Below, in pieces: positions 25,326 through 31,292 of a stretch of DNA of 64,000 nt (positions within the stretch are counted from its first letter, which is position 1; each line of letters starts with the position of its first letter). Source of the stretch: Streptomyces diastaticus subsp. diastaticus (GTDB lineage: Bacteria; Actinomycetota; Actinomycetes; Streptomycetales; Streptomycetaceae); the NCBI RefSeq assembly GCF_011170125.1, contig NZ_BLLN01000002.1:124001-188000 (forward strand). The letters run 5' to 3'. A model generated the notes under the pieces. It was given only the letters and a program-made list of their open reading frames with translations, did no database searches and was not told the origin of the DNA. The translations under genes and the position numbers were made by a program.

Positions 25326-26228
25326 ATGGCCCCGGAGAAAGGCTCACTCTTCTTGACCACCACCGCGACACCCTCTTCCGCGACGCCCGAACCGCACCCG
25401 GTCCACGCCTTCAACCAGGCGGTGATCGAGGAGTTCCGCGCCAACCGGGGAAGGGTCGGGGGCCCCTTCGAAGGCGGCCGCCTGCTCCTGATCACCACCA
25501 CCGGCGCCCGCTCGGGCCGCCCGCACACCAACCCGGTCGGCTACCTCCCCGACGGCGACCGCGTCCTGATCATCGCCTCGGCGGGCGGCGGTCCGCACCA
25601 CCCCGCCTGGTACCACAACCTCGTCGCCCACCCCGTCCTCACCGTCGAGGACGGCACCTTCACCTACGAGGCCCGCGCCGAGATCCTCACCGGCGAGGAG
25701 CGCGACCTCCTCTTCGCCCGGGCCGCCGAGGCCGACCAGGGGTGGGCCGAGTACCAGCGCGGGACCACCCGCGCCATCCCGGTGGTCGCCCTCACCCAGA
25801 TCGGCGCCGGCCCGCCCGCCGGCGGCGACCCGGCAGCCCTGCTGCTCGGCGTCCACGACGCCTTCCGCCGCGAACTGAGCACCGTCCGCGAGGAGTTCGC
25901 CGCATCCGGGCCCACCCTCATGGCGCAGCTGAAGGTCAACTGCCTGACCGTCTGCGACAACCTCCACGCCCACCACACCATGGAGGACCGCGGTCTGTTC
26001 CCCGCCATGGGCCGGCAGCACCCTCAGCTGGCCCCGCAGCTCGACCGGCTGCGCGCCGAGCACGAGACCGTCGCCACCCTCCTGGCCGAGCTGCGCGCCA
26101 CCCTCGGCCGCACCGACGCCACCCCGGCCGGCCTCCTCCCGGACGTCGACCGCCTCATCGCCGAACTGGAGGCCCACCTGACCTACGAGGAGGAGATCCT
26201 GCTGCCTCTCCTCGAGCAAGCCGCCTGA
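25326..26228 (+). CDS. F420-dependent nitroreductase-like protein fused to a hemerythrin domain
   Basis: 300 residues with two domains. Residues about 20-145 form a deazaflavin (F420)-dependent nitroreductase-family domain: FEGGRLLLITTTGARSGRPH, NPVGYLPDGDRVLIIAS, HPAWYHNLVAHP. Residues about 165-298 are a hemerythrin HHE domain with iron-ligand histidines and glutamates: LHAHHTMEDRGLFP, RAEHETVATLL, HLTYEEEILLPLL. The combination suggests redox or oxygen sensing chemistry but the substrate is unknown. The start is uncertain: ATG 25326 is used, GTG 25320 lies in frame, and TTG 25353 lies behind GGAGAAAGG. A leaderless reading frame and hairpins lie upstream. Confidence 0.85.
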   Translation: MAPEKGSLFLTTTATPSSATPEPHPVHAFNQAVIEEFRANRGRVGGPFEGGRLLLITTTGARSGRPHTNPVGYLPDGDRVLIIASAGGGPHHPAWYHNLVAHPVLTVEDGTFTYEARAEILTGEERDLLFARAAEADQGWAEYQRGTTRAIPVVALTQIGAGPPAGGDPAALLLGVHDAFRRELSTVREEFAASGPTLMAQLKVNCLTVCDNLHAHHTMEDRGLFPAMGRQHPQLAPQLDRLRAEHETVATLLAELRATLGRTDATPAGLLPDVDRLIAELEAHLTYEEEILLPLLEQAA

Positions 26229-26452: not shown

Positions 26453-26794
26453 ATGGGTCCCAAGGACGCCGACAGTGAAGCCGAGTTGAAGAAACGCGCC
26501 GAGCGGTTGCGGGAGTGCGCCCGCCAGGCCCGTACCCTCGCCCGCGGCCTCGGTCCCTACCTGGACGACGCGGTGAAGAAGGCCACCCCGCGCGCCGCCG
26601 CGGGAGACGGCAAGGGCGCGATATGGCAGGGCCCGTTCGCCGACGAGTGCACCACCAAGCTCCAGCAGCGCAAGCGCACCCTCAACAACATGGGCACGGC
26701 GCTGATGGCGGACGCCACCCGCTGGGAGAGCCAGGCCGAGGAACTCGACCGGCAGGCCGAGAAGACGGCCAAGGCCGAAGCGGGCGGCGGCTGA
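26453..26794 (+). CDS. WXG100-like small helical protein
   Basis: 113 residues, almost wholly charged amphipathic helix, with a central IWQGPFADEC turn (WQG at residues 58-60) splitting two helices, as in ESAT-6/WXG100 proteins. The C-terminal helix is LQQRKRTLNNMGTALMADATRWESQAEELDRQAEK. WXG100 proteins are partners or carriers for type VII secretion; no ESX machinery gene is in the window. ATG at 26453 follows AGAGGAAC. Its TGA overlaps the ATG of the calpain-like gene by one base, so the two are translated together and may form a complex. Confidence 0.75.
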   Translation: MGPKDADSEAELKKRAERLRECARQARTLARGLGPYLDDAVKKATPRAAAGDGKGAIWQGPFADECTTKLQQRKRTLNNMGTALMADATRWESQAEELDRQAEKTAKAEAGGG

Positions 26795-28290
26795 TGGCCT
26801 TCCGCGGATTCGACGCCGCCAAGCTGCGGGCGCTCGCCGGCGACCTGGACCGGAAGGCCGGGGACTCGGCCGGCCTCCACTCCAGACTGGCGACGCTCCT
26901 CACCACCGCCCAGCAGAACCTGCCGCCGGGCCAGGCCGCCTCCCGCGACCCCGACCTCCAGGGCCTCGTCGGCGACCTGGTGCCGATGCCGTCCTTCTTC
27001 GGCGGACGCCGCCGCCTGCCCGGCTCCCTGCAGAGCGAACTCGGGGACATGCAGGGCTCCATGAAGCGCCGGGTACGCCAGATGGAGGGCCTCCAGGAGC
27101 TGGAGAAGCTCGGCTACCCGGTCAGTGACGGCAGCGTCTTCCTGGACGAGAAGCCGCCCGACCCGAAGAAGATCGACGACGCCCTGCGCAACTTCCAGGG
27201 CCTGCGCGGCACCGACTTCGGCACCAACGGCAACCGGGACGACCTGGAGAGGATCGCCGCCGAACTGGACGGGCTGAGCGGCGCCGAGCTGGACGTCTTC
27301 ATGTCGAAGGCGTCCCCCGACGACCTCGCCTTCTACAACGAGTTGCTCTCCGACACCTCGGACTCCGGCTGGAACCCGTTCGACGAGAACGGCCTGCCCG
27401 AGGACCAGCGCCGCGACACGCTCAGCCTGATGCTGTCCAGGATCAGCCCGCAGAACGTCGCCAAGTTCCAGACGGCCTTCCCGGACATGCAGCCCACCTT
27501 CACCAACACGGGCGCCTACGAGAGCGGCGGCAACGACCAGAACGGCCTGACCAACAACGGCATCCACTGGGCACCCCCCTCGGACCCGCTGTTCCGCGAC
27601 GGCGTCTCCGCCGACGACGTCAGCCAGAACCAGTTCGGCGACTGCTGGTACGTGGCCTCGCTGGCCGGGCTCTCCCAGCAGAACCCGAAGTTCATCGAGG
27701 AGGGCATCAAGGAGAACCCGAACGGCACGGTCAGCGTCCGCGTCTGGGACAAGGAGGGCAACCACCACTGGGTCACCATGACCGCCGACCTGCCCACCGA
27801 CCAGAACGGCGACCCGATCAGCACGTACGGCAACGGCGAGACCTGGCCCGCGTACTACGAGAAGGCCTTCGCGATGGTCTACTCGGAGGACGGCGAGGGC
27901 GAACGCGGCTACGGCGGCATCGAGGGCGACGACCCCAAGAAGTCCGCGCCCTACCTGACCGGCCAGGAGGGTGAGGACCTGCGCACCGGCGGCTTCCTCG
28001 GCATCGGCTCGGGCCAGGACAAGGACATCGACCGGCTGCGCGAGGCCTACGAGTCGGGCCAGGTCGTCACCGTCTCCACCCCTGACGACGAGAGCCTCGA
28101 CAAGGACCACCCCAAGGAGTGGGGCAGCACCTACCACACCAACCACGCCTACTACGTGCGGGGTTTCACCGACGACGGCAAGGTCGTCCTCGGCAACCCC
28201 TGGGGCACCCAGGGCTATCCGCCGATCACCGTCAGCCAGGACCAGCTCGACAAGTACTTCCACTACCCCGAGGCCTTCGATGTCCCGTGA
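26794..28290 (+). CDS. Calpain-family (C2) cysteine protease
   Basis: 498 residues. The C-terminal half is a calpain catalytic domain: NQFGDCWYVASLAGL with Cys284, TNHAYYVRGF with His451 and VLGNPWGTQ with Asn468, which gives the full Cys-His-Asn triad and the family's GDCW and NPWG signatures. The TWPAYYEKAFAMVY segment also fits. The N-terminal 260 residues are helical and start like a WXG100-type protein (FDAAKLRALAGDLDRKAGDSAGLHSRL), suggesting a secreted or complexed prodomain; there is no signal peptide. It overlaps the WXG100-like gene before it (TGATG) and the small gene after it by 11 bp. Target proteins are unknown. Calpains usually need calcium; no EF-hand is obvious. Confidence 0.9.
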   Translation: MAFRGFDAAKLRALAGDLDRKAGDSAGLHSRLATLLTTAQQNLPPGQAASRDPDLQGLVGDLVPMPSFFGGRRRLPGSLQSELGDMQGSMKRRVRQMEGLQELEKLGYPVSDGSVFLDEKPPDPKKIDDALRNFQGLRGTDFGTNGNRDDLERIAAELDGLSGAELDVFMSKASPDDLAFYNELLSDTSDSGWNPFDENGLPEDQRRDTLSLMLSRISPQNVAKFQTAFPDMQPTFTNTGAYESGGNDQNGLTNNGIHWAPPSDPLFRDGVSADDVSQNQFGDCWYVASLAGLSQQNPKFIEEGIKENPNGTVSVRVWDKEGNHHWVTMTADLPTDQNGDPISTYGNGETWPAYYEKAFAMVYSEDGEGERGYGGIEGDDPKKSAPYLTGQEGEDLRTGGFLGIGSGQDKDIDRLREAYESGQVVTVSTPDDESLDKDHPKEWGSTYHTNHAYYVRGFTDDGKVVLGNPWGTQGYPPITVSQDQLDKYFHYPEAFDVP

Positions 28291-28615
28291 CGACGACGCC
28301 CCTCGCGTCAAGTACCCCTTCGCGTTCGACGGCCGGTGGGTGCTGCGCCACCACGTGCCGTACTCCGTCGAGCACGAGGGCCGCACCCACCGGATCGTGG
28401 CGACCGTCTTCTCGCAGCCCTCGGTGCACGGCCGCGTCCAGATCAGTTGCGAGGGACTGCCCCCCGTCGAGCACGACGGACTGACCCCGGGCGACACGGT
28501 GGAGGTCACCGGCGACACCTGGCGGGTGGCCGAGGTCGACTACCGCACCCGTGTCGTCCTCGAAGGCCCGGCGGACACCCACGGGGAGGACTCCGGTGAC
28601 CAGGCGGACGCGTAA
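28280..28615 (+). CDS. Small protein with a beta-rich repeat, unknown function
   Basis: 111 residues, no signal peptide or membrane helix, family not recognised with confidence (possibly DUF6406-like). It starts inside the last codons of the calpain-like gene (11-bp overlap) and ends 20 bp inside the next gene, so it is tightly coupled. Its C-terminal part LTPGDTVEVTGDTWRVAEVD then YRTRVVLEG is the same pattern found twice in the adjacent lipoprotein. This suggests shared ancestry and a cytoplasmic/exported pair. It could modulate or be a substrate of the protease; that is inference only. Confidence 0.7.
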   Translation: MSRDDDAPRVKYPFAFDGRWVLRHHVPYSVEHEGRTHRIVATVFSQPSVHGRVQISCEGLPPVEHDGLTPGDTVEVTGDTWRVAEVDYRTRVVLEGPADTHGEDSGDQADA

Positions 28616-29396
28616 GCACGGCTACGGCACGGCAGCGGCCGCCGCGCTGGCCCTGCTGTCCCTGGCGGGTTGCGGCTCGTCACCCGAGGCGGGCGGGGAA
28701 GGCGGCGGTGGGGGCGAGGCGACCCCGGCCGCCCGCGACAAGGGCCCCGCGTGCGTCGGCGAGGCCCCCGGTGAGGGCGGCGTCCACGTCCTGCGGGGCG
28801 GCGGCTTCAAGTTGCCCGGCGGAGGCGGCGTGCAGTACGCCGGGGCCTCCGCGGACGGCACGACGCGGACGGCCACCCTGCGCGACGGCGCCACCTACGC
28901 CTCCGGCCAGGAGCAGTGGAAGGTCACCCCCGGGGCGGAGGTCACCGTCTCCGGTCACGGCTACACGGTGCGGCAACTCTGCGCCCACCGCGTGGTCCTG
29001 GAGCCGCGGGCCGCCGAGGACAGGGCCGCCCTCGCCACCGGGCCGAAGTCGCTCGAACCCCGCCAGGGCGCCGCCGACGCCCCCCTCTGCTTCACCACCA
29101 ACCCCACCGTCCTGGCGGCCGCCGCCAAGGGCTTCCCGCCCGAGGGCGAGACCCTCTCCCTGCTCGGCAACGGCGGGGTACGGCGCTTCCCCACGGGCCT
29201 GTCCGTCACGGTCGCCTACGTCCACAAGGAGACCGGAACCGCCGGCCTCGACGCCAACTGCGCCGGTGTCCAGGTCGCCGGCTACGAGGACGTCCGGCCC
29301 GGGGACACCGTGGAGTTCGCCGGGGTGCGGTTCGAGGTGTCGGCGCTGACCCCACAGGCGGTACGGCTCACCCGCCTGGGCGGGGGGAAGAGCTAG
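28596..29396 (+). CDS. Lipoprotein with two copies of the same beta-rich repeat
   Basis: 266 residues. After TRRTRKHGYG and a hydrophobic stretch comes a lipobox LSLAGCGS, so it is an anchored lipoprotein. A Gly-rich linker follows, then two similar modules of about 100 residues, each ending in a repeat: VTPGAEVTVSGHGYTVRQL and VRPGDTVEFAGVRFEVSAL, each closed by a V-x-L strand. Several cysteines (for example QLCAHRVV, PLCFTTN, DANCAGVQ) could pair. GTG at 28596 is chosen for the GGGGAGGA site; a longer frame from 28551 is less likely. Last gene of the calpain operon; function unknown. Confidence 0.75.
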   Translation: MTRRTRKHGYGTAAAAALALLSLAGCGSSPEAGGEGGGGGEATPAARDKGPACVGEAPGEGGVHVLRGGGFKLPGGGGVQYAGASADGTTRTATLRDGATYASGQEQWKVTPGAEVTVSGHGYTVRQLCAHRVVLEPRAAEDRAALATGPKSLEPRQGAADAPLCFTTNPTVLAAAAKGFPPEGETLSLLGNGGVRRFPTGLSVTVAYVHKETGTAGLDANCAGVQVAGYEDVRPGDTVEFAGVRFEVSALTPQAVRLTRLGGGKS

Positions 29397-29604: not shown

Positions 29605-30639
29605 TCAGCGGTTGATCGACTGGATCTCCTCGACCTCGACCGCCTGCTCGTTCCCGAACGTCCCGTCCGGCAGCGCCTGCGCGGCCGCCACCCCGGTCCC
29701 GGTCCAGCTGATCTCCCAGGTCACCGTCGCCTCCATGGCGTACGACCCGCCGCCGGAGGACCGCAGGTAGGTCACGCCGCACGGCGGCTCCTGGTTCGCC
29801 TTCCCCTTGGCGTACGGTTCCCCGATCGACCCGTCCCCGTTGAGCGCGCACTCCCCCGACGCCGGATGCAACCGCGCGTCCTTCGTCCCCGGCTCGATCG
29901 TCAACGACTTGGGTGTGGCCGTGGTCGTGGCGGACATGTCCAGCCCGCCCACCGCCAACGAGGCCGTCACCGAGACCGGTTTGAACTCCCCACCGTCCAA
30001 CCAGGCCCAGGTCGGCAGATTCACCTTGCTCCTGCCCCCGGGGGCGAGCGTGACCTCCGTCCCGGGCACCTTTATCTGTTCGTAGGCGAGCCCGGCGAGG
30101 ATTTCGGGCGTGATGACGTTCTCGACCTCGGGGGTCTCACCGTTGTCGGCCCAGAAGGGGATCCGGTCGCAGGCGAACTGTTCCTCGAAGGGTGCGTTGG
30201 GATTCTGCACTGCTCCCCACCACATCCCCTCGCCCTCCTTCTCCTCGTTGAAGTTCTCGTATTCCCCGTCGATGTAGTTGTGCCGCTCCTCGTTCCACTT
30301 GTTGCGAGCGTCGGGCGGCAGACCTGGATCGTGAAGTATCGCCTGATAGGTCAACTGGTAGTAGTCGCGAAGCTCGTCCGGGGTCCATTTCGGCGCGTAC
30401 CAGCAGGGCGGCGGCGACCAGTCGGTCTGCGCCGCGGCGACCGGGCCGGCCGCCGGTCCTGAACCATTCTTCGAGGTGTCGTACTTGATCACCTCGACCT
30501 GGGCGTTCAGGTTTCCGTTCTGCTGCCCACCGGAGGGGACCAGCGATTCACCACGGTCCGCCATAGCCGGAGTGCTCGCCACCAGCAGCAGGATGGTCCC
30601 TGCTCCGAGGACCGGACCTCGACGGCTCAGGCGGCGCAC
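29605..30639 (-). CDS. Secreted protein of unknown function
   Basis: 344 residues with a signal peptide (GAGTILLLVASTPAMA, cleavage before DRGES) and no anchor. The mature part is polar, with SPPPCWYAPKWTPDELRDYYQ and FACDRIPFWADN sections and a C-terminal beta-rich region (VTWEISWTGTGVAAAQ). Five or so cysteines probably form disulfides. The family is not recognised, though such ~340-residue secreted proteins with PPPCWY occur in Streptomyces beside small lipoproteins. GTG at 30639 lies 13 bp inside the upstream lipoprotein gene, so the two are co-expressed. Convergent with the calpain operon. Confidence 0.75.
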   Translation of the reverse strand: MRRLSRRGPVLGAGTILLLVASTPAMADRGESLVPSGGQQNGNLNAQVEVIKYDTSKNGSGPAAGPVAAAQTDWSPPPCWYAPKWTPDELRDYYQLTYQAILHDPGLPPDARNKWNEERHNYIDGEYENFNEEKEGEGMWWGAVQNPNAPFEEQFACDRIPFWADNGETPEVENVITPEILAGLAYEQIKVPGTEVTLAPGGRSKVNLPTWAWLDGGEFKPVSVTASLAVGGLDMSATTTATPKSLTIEPGTKDARLHPASGECALNGDGSIGEPYAKGKANQEPPCGVTYLRSSGGGSYAMEATVTWEISWTGTGVAAAQALPDGTFGNEQAVEVEEIQSINR

Positions 30640-31292
30640 TCGGCCACCCCCTGCTTTCCGGTAATGGCCTTAGCGCGCCACGGCCCCTTCCCCGATGTAG
30701 GAGCCTCCAGGACCAGGGTGAAGGAGTAGTAGCTGTTTTCGCTGGGCTCAGTGACCTTCACCTTTCCCCCCTTCACGTTCTTGCTGTAGAACTTCGACTC
30801 GTCCTGGCAATAGGTGACCGACGCGGTCCTGGTCCCGGACAGCTTCACCTGAGCAGAGGGAAATTGCTGCACACCGCTGACAGTGTGCCCCGCTTCCTTG
30901 GCCTGCTTGATCTGATCCTCGGCATAGGTGGCTGCCTGGCTGAGCGGGACCGTGTAGAACTTGTACGGCGAGCTGCGCGGGTCCTGCTCGGTGATGCCGT
31001 AAATGATCGACCTCAGATACTGCTCCGTGTCGTCAAGTACTGCAGCCTCTTTGGCTTCTGAGGGCTTCTGCCAGGCGAACTTGAACTCGACGTCACCCGG
31101 AAACTCCATCTCGGGCCGGTCGATCCCATCCCCCGCTCCCTTCTCGCCAGGCGAAGCCGAAGCCTCGGCGGAGTTCTCCCCCGCGCCTGCGATCTTGTCG
31201 TCCGGGTCGGACGACTCCCCGCCGCAGCCGGTCAGCAGGAGGGCGGTCGCCGTGGCGAGTGCGGTGAGGGCGGGCAACGTTCGGCGGTTCAC
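30627..31292 (-). CDS. Lipoprotein of unknown function
   Basis: 221 residues with a clear lipobox LLLTGCGG at residues 19-25. The mature part starts with an acidic linker, then a compact domain: FPGDVEFKFAWQKPSEAK, VLDDTEQYLRSIIYGI, and strands with TASVTYCQDESKFYSKN. The shape recalls the SnoaL/NTF2-like lipoproteins of actinomycetes, but no firm assignment is possible. GTG at 31292 follows GGGAG. It overlaps the secreted-protein gene downstream. Function unknown; likely surface partner of that protein. Confidence 0.75.
   Translation of the reverse strand: MNRRTLPALTALATATALLLTGCGGESSDPDDKIAGAGENSAEASASPGEKGAGDGIDRPEMEFPGDVEFKFAWQKPSEAKEAAVLDDTEQYLRSIIYGITEQDPRSSPYKFYTVPLSQAATYAEDQIKQAKEAGHTVSGVQQFPSAQVKLSGTRTASVTYCQDESKFYSKNVKGGKVKVTEPSENSYYSFTLVLEAPTSGKGPWRAKAITGKQGVAECAA

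Follow-up and report, generated by a model that had tools for sequence, protein, structure and literature searches.

The operon described here lies in a stretch of 64,000 nucleotides from Streptomyces diastaticus subsp. diastaticus (contig NZ_BLLN01000002.1, positions 124,001 to 188,000), hereafter called the window. It occupies positions 26453-29396 of the window and is composed of four genes in the same direction, each overlapping the next by a few bases, which encode a calpain-type cysteine protease, a small WXG100-like partner and two proteins related to the family DUF6406:

26453..26794, + strand: G1, WXG100-like partner of 113 amino acids (aa) with W58-x-G60, assigned from the W-x-G motif, a profile match and its position upstream of the protease
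26794..28290, + strand: G2, C2 (calpain) cysteine protease of 498 aa, possibly with a WXG100-like N-terminal region, assigned from PF00648 and the catalytic residues
28280..28615, + strand: G3, DUF6406 protein of 111 aa, proposed cytosolic immunity protein, assigned from PF19944 and profile matches
28596..29396, + strand: G4, lipoprotein of 266 aa with two DUF6406-like beta domains, proposed cell-surface immunity protein, assigned from profiles and a structural model

The operon is as the initial annotation had described it. The G1 and G2 frames meet in a TGATG overlap (26792-26796), in agreement with the co-translated WXG100-like gene placed upstream of the protease, and the two overlapping genes reported downstream are present, with overlaps of 11 bases (G2/G3) and 20 bases (G3/G4). 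G4 has a GTG start and the lipobox LAGC, as expected for the lipoprotein that had been proposed. A GC-frame gene caller recovered all four frames and misplaced starts, such as that of G4, which it set too late, at 28830.

A search with the Pfam Peptidase_C2 hidden Markov model (PF00648) supported the assignment of G2 to the calpains (E=1e-12, 48.2 bits, cut-off 23.8), and all 33 aligned G2-type sequences matched this model at E<=0.1. The solved chain nearest to G2 is calpain-5 (E=5.4e-6). The full calpain triad claimed earlier (Cys284, His451 and Asn468) was found to be invariant in 33/33 aligned sequences, including that of the window, as was Gln278, which precedes the Cys. Calpains were detected in 16 genomes of a genus sample of 295, own genome included, and those of the G2 type in seven, again with the own genome; this fits the previous remark that calpains are rare in bacteria. 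The calpains of the other nine positive genomes share <=30% identity with G2 where labelled at all, and they were excluded from the G2-family count. No G1, G3 or G4 label was seen at these loci (3.3-3.7 kb each; L065, a second locus of genome G064, was not included).

The W-x-G motif of G1 is present in 33/33 distinct sequences, the window's included, and profile comparison relates G1 to a WXG100-type protein of the EssC-like locus (95.5%, E=1.5e-8). The window's G1 has no match to the Pfam WXG100 model; within the G1 family, at E<=0.1, T7SS_ESX_EspC was touched by 5/24 sequences and WXG100 by 2/24 (best 0.0084). For the N-terminus of G2, the WXG100 profile probability is 61% in the main group and 89% in the Intrasporangiaceae, whose sequences show a W-x-G, and Pfam WXG100 was touched by 3/33 aligned G2-type proteins (best 0.00099). 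Used as a query, residues 1-140 of G2 retrieved 33 proteins, 32 of which carry PF00648, the remaining one being the window's own entry. These residues were thus found joined only to calpain domains, and a polymorphic-toxin reading of this N-terminus was rejected at word-match sensitivity.

G3 matches DUF6406 (PF19944) with 28.1 bits, just over the cut-off of 26.9, and 16/22 aligned G3-type sequences match it at E<=0.01. No signal peptide is visible on G3. Its profile matches the second domain of G4 in the same genome (E=1e-5), and profile comparisons gave 92.7% for G3 with this domain, 98.3% for G3 with the fused domain of a second Streptomyces group and, in other genera, 98.7% for G3 with the lipoprotein. 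The first domain of G4 reaches 98.1% with the lipoprotein of other genera, its direct profile matches being weak (62% to the second domain and 24% to G3). The domains of G3 and G4 are thus connected through intermediate profiles, and the repeat which the initial annotation had recognized in the two downstream proteins is real but remote. The AlphaFold2 model of G4, with a mean predicted local distance difference test (pLDDT) score of 85.9, is confident outside the signal region and contains two beta domains; read by eye, the strand order is similar in both. Profile searches of the PDB gave weak matches only, for G3 to designed Ig-like chains (best E=0.00049, no stretch passing alone) and for G4 with a best E=0.61. 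In the own genome one Pfam DUF6406 match is over the cut-off, namely G3, and one weak match lies elsewhere. Across the genus sample the G3 profile matches nine genomes, including all seven G2-type carriers, in a search limited to 16 scored candidates per genome, so that misses are possible; in G101 and G154 the match is a copy fused into the lipoprotein.

One scan of a genome collection gave 39 related loci. Their hosts are Streptomyces and relatives, Planotetraspora, Microbispora, Thermoactinospora, Kribbella, Cellulomonas, Haloactinopolyspora, Catenulispora, Janibacter, Intrasporangium, Humibacillus, an actinomycete bin and one distant Amycolatopsis bin. By profiles of G1, G3 and G4 built partly from these same loci, 34/39 loci have the partner gene immediately before that of the protease, and a DUF6406-type or related lipoprotein gene is present in the operon in 38/39, the exception being the distant locus L040. 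The flanking genes proposed in the initial annotation therefore co-occur with the protease in other genomes, and since the arrangement is conserved across several families, a chance arrangement is untenable. The gene caller missed G1 in L008, L018, L022, L030, L034 and L037, where it was recovered by profile. A separate partner gene is missing in the four Intrasporangiaceae loci. Read by eye, G3 and G4 are separate genes in 25 loci, among them L014, where the lipoprotein gene lies upstream. By the same reading, eight loci (L015-L020, L030 and L037) have a single lipoprotein that holds both domain types, and five have the lipoprotein only, no separate G3 being found in L034-L036, L038 and L039. 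The lipobox pattern is present in 36/38 lipoproteins, in some of them misplaced; by eye at least 31/38 are sound. A protein tree splits the Streptomyces group of the window from the fused-lipoprotein group. Two records deserve mention: at L008:7001-8497 the calpain was called in two pieces, possibly owing to an assembly frame error or to a decaying gene, and the protease of L022, recorded as Streptomyces sp. SID13031, groups with Kribbella, which may reflect a wrong name or gene transfer.

The operon is associated with an EssC/EccC-like ATPase of the type VII secretion system (T7SS). The close EssC-like subtype was defined by E<1e-100 with the first 400 residues, a threshold placed in a break in the ranked E-values, from 4e-107 to 3e-66. 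It occurs in 14/295 genus genomes, comprising 7/7 G2-type genomes and 7/288 others (Fisher p=9.6e-11, kinship ignored; two of the seven G2-type genomes are those in which L003 and L007 lie, and related genomes are not independent). Among genomes drawn from the 39 loci, an EssC-like relative was found in all 24 that were asked (best E<=5.7e-165), with a background of 13/40 class genomes, own genome included, at E<=1e-150; up to 24 candidates per genome were scored in the protease genomes and up to 14 in the class sample. A background sample of the phylum (11/198 EssC-like) was set aside as too low, because only two candidates per genome had been scored. Physical linkage was also observed. Whole or in part, the ATPase gene lies within the 7-kb flanks in 8/39 loci, together with WXG100 and often Tad pilus genes, and in at least 12 distinct genomes an EssC-like gene is <=20 kb from the protease (L003-L008, L010, L015, L030, G101, G193 and G197). 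L011, L018 and L037 were omitted from this count, the presence of both genes on one contig being uncertain there. The protease forms two main clades in Streptomyces, and the linkage occurs in each of them.

In the own genome the EssC-like ATPase has 1479 residues, with an FtsK/SpoIIIE-type chain, YukB and EccC5 as the top matches in the PDB. Its N-terminus gives a weak match, below the cut-off, to PF16697, which we take to be an FHA-like family. One clear WXG100 gene (44.6 bits) lies nearby and a second is below the cut-off (21.0 bits). WXG100-type genes are present at this locus (L049, G000:C2:1353000-1372900). Proteins of 345-683 residues without a Pfam match over the cut-off are encoded near EssC-like genes (L049:15880-17337, L083:11798-12835 and L070:15303-17354), and they are possible further T7SS substrates. 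EccB, a marker of the classical T7SS, was found in 262/295 genus genomes. The same search did not detect it in two genomes that have both the protease and the EssC-like gene, namely the own genome and G193; the other five of the seven G2-type genomes have it. In this sample, therefore, the protease occurs without EccB and never without the EssC-like ATPase.

An allele that has lost the protease was found at L097 in genome G142, where the calpain search of the genus sample had detected nothing. There, Tad genes are followed by lip223 and sec361 (labels coined in this analysis for two genes of EssC-like loci, listed below) and then by G3 and G4; G1 is gone and G2 is reduced to a remnant of its 3' end. 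The EssC-like match of G142 is distant (37% over residues 170-399). The retention of the protective genes after loss of the protease fits the prediction that they confer immunity. At L098 and L099 a single G3-like domain stands alone, and G259 retains a single G3-like domain.

On balance, we take the operon to be a T7SS effector-immunity cassette made up of partner, protease and immunity proteins. The presumably helical G1 would pair with the N-terminus of G2, and together they would form an export signal recognized by the EssC-like ATPase. Once outside, the calpain domain may cut proteins of competing cells. The DUF6406 domains would bind and block the protease, G3 acting in the cytosol of the producer before export and the lipoprotein G4 at the producer's own surface. 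The doubled immunity domain, with one copy lacking and one carrying an export signal, points to protection of cytosol and surface alike. This reading draws on what can be seen in the sequences, that is, gene order, catalytic residues, the relation of G3 and G4, the co-occurrence and linkage with the ATPase and the allele with G3 and G4 only; from these we infer the pairing of G1 with G2, secretion, proteolysis, an antibacterial target and direct inhibition. The toxin-inhibitor pair and the type VII effector, which the initial annotation had listed as alternatives, are supported jointly by the linkage to, and co-occurrence with, EssC-like and WXG100 genes and by the immunity-only allele.

Several known systems resemble this proposed cassette. 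In EsxE/EsxF-CpnT of mycobacteria, a WXG100-type domain is fused to an enzyme toxin beside a WXG100 partner gene; the enzyme and the T7SS differ from those considered here. In the staphylococcal T7SSb cassette TslA/TilA/TlaA1-TlaA2 (PMC10730906), an enzyme effector is encoded together with helical partners of small size and an immunity lipoprotein that is exported, and TilA acting against TslA is a precedent for lipoprotein immunity; the gene order and lipoprotein of the present operon resemble those of known T7SSb cassettes. TslA, however, is a lipase whose targeting domain is C-terminal, whereas here the enzyme is a calpain and the targeting domain, if any, is N-terminal, and the proposed immunity domain is present in a further copy that has no lipoprotein signal. 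Tox-PL1/Imm35 (Zhang 2012, PMC3482391) likewise couples peptidase toxins of papain-like fold, often with WXG N-termini, to a dedicated immunity protein. Tox-PL1 belongs to a different peptidase family, and the word calpain is absent from the first 300,000 of the 357,715 characters of that paper. Also comparable are the fusions of WXG100 and calpain domains in Herpetosiphon and Segniliparus described by Rawlings (2015, PMC4631099), who also names a calpain of Streptomyces viridochromogenes, the host of our locus L010; a published reviewer comment holds that such fusions are likely secreted T7SS toxins. These fusions and their possible T7SS export are thus already in print. In its available text, that account does not describe the operon, the partner gene, the DUF6406 immunity candidate or the EssC-like linkage. 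The earlier statement that no operon of this make-up had been described agrees with the literature searched as far as the operon goes, and has to be qualified with respect to the fusions. No literature was found on the DUF6406 pair or on this EssC-like locus, a weak negative from a search made mostly without subscription papers.

Some observations weigh against the cassette or against its parts. The N-terminus of the window's G2 has no match to the Pfam WXG100 model, so the WXG100-like character given to it by the initial annotation is only suggested for this protein, being clearer in the Intrasporangiaceae homologues. The fusion of residues 1-140 to calpain domains only appears unlike typical polymorphic toxins. 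G3 and G4 are not hypervariable, their mean pairwise identity over 10 loci being 69% and 71%, compared with 82% for the catalytic part of G2. No known inhibitor fold was recognized for G4, for which Foldseek and VIA-align gave nothing convincing; this does not make the fold new. A cytosolic inhibitor is not universal, since the immunity domains are fused in eight loci and confined to the lipoprotein in five, and only one clear immunity-only genome was seen. As for the exporter, at a cut-off of 1e-20 an EssC-like match occurs in 110/295 genus genomes, 1.2 Mb (own genome) or 2.4 Mb (G154) separate the EssC-like gene from the protease, and the presence of EccB in 5/7 protease genomes leaves a classical T7SS as a possible exporter there.

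Other explanations share part of this evidence. G2 might be exported by a T7SS-like route but directed at the producer itself, remodelling its envelope or developmental proteins, with G3 and G4 keeping it inactive until needed. A single fixed catalytic domain without swapped toxin domains, an old operon conserved across families and a surface lipoprotein as regulator would suit such a protease, but its patchy presence (7/295 genus genomes) is ill-suited to a core developmental role and the retention of G3 and G4 after loss of G1 and nearly all of G2 at L097 would be odd for regulators of a lost enzyme, and we consider this explanation unlikely. The anatomy of the operon does not reveal the target, and calpains are best known from eukaryotes (PMC4631099); an effector against such organisms, for instance amoebae, fungi or invertebrates, with the producer shielded from its own protease by G3 and G4, is nevertheless quite improbable in our judgement.

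The close linkage to EssC-like genes and other candidate substrates would also agree with G2 being the maturation protease of the EssC-like machine, processing other T7SS substrates in a mycosin-like role. However, G2 is missing from half of the genus genomes that hold the close EssC-like subtype (7/14), which shows that the machine can do without it, and G2 has its own WXG-type partner, as a cargo would; we give this possibility very little weight. Equally little is given to G2 as a cytosolic signalling protease with a helical adaptor, its link to secretion loci being hitch-hiking. No signal peptide is seen on G2 by eye, no predictor having been applied, and the window's copy is unlinked to an EssC-like gene, but the ATPase co-occurs in 7/7 and 24/24 genomes, each of the two main clades that the protease forms in Streptomyces shows the linkage, and lipoprotein domains should face outwards.

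Downstream of the operon, on the opposite strand, the window contains the homologues of the two genes met at L097:

29605..30639, - strand: sec361 homologue, a gene recurring at EssC-like loci, the same family lying beside Tad or EssC-like genes elsewhere
30627..31292, - strand: lip223 homologue, a lipoprotein-like gene of EssC-like loci, assigned from its recurrence at those loci in other genomes

Because this pair recurs beside Tad or EssC-like genes, the window appears to carry part of such a locus in a displaced position, and the gene at 29605..30639 probably belongs to the same displaced segment. Upstream of the operon, positions 25326-26228 (+ strand) encode an F420H2-dependent quinone reductase domain fused to a hemerythrin domain.

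Beyond the cassette itself, we tentatively propose, at less than even confidence, that a new T7SS subtype of Actinomycetota exports a calpain toxin and that DUF6406 is a new family of calpain-specific inhibitors acting in the cytosol and at the surface. As part of this joint reading, and just as tentatively, the subtype would comprise an EssC-like ATPase with an FHA-like N-terminus and WXG100 proteins, would often lie beside Tad genes and could exist without EccB. Eight further T7SS subtypes, T7SSc-T7SSj, were described by Garrett (2024, PMC11217815), all from Bacillota except T7SSd. They also have an EssC/EccC ATPase and WXG100 proteins, some are adjacent to Tad genes, some of their ATPases have FHA domains, and small WXG100-like partners are usual beside candidate substrates. 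Unlike the present ATPase with its weak FHA-like Pfam match, the Tad-adjacent T7SSg and T7SSh are without FHA domains. In the text of that paper Streptomyces has 0 occurrences, and none of the subtypes, as far as its available portion goes, matches an actinomycete locus that is linked to Tad genes and has an FHA-like ATPase.

If this is true, bacterial calpains would gain a concrete function as secreted weapons, and DUF6406, a family of unknown function, would gain a role as protease inhibitor. Streptomyces would then have a second, testable type VII-like export route. A natural small inhibitor of the calpain family would also be relevant to human calpain research, although the bacterial enzyme is remote from the human ones.

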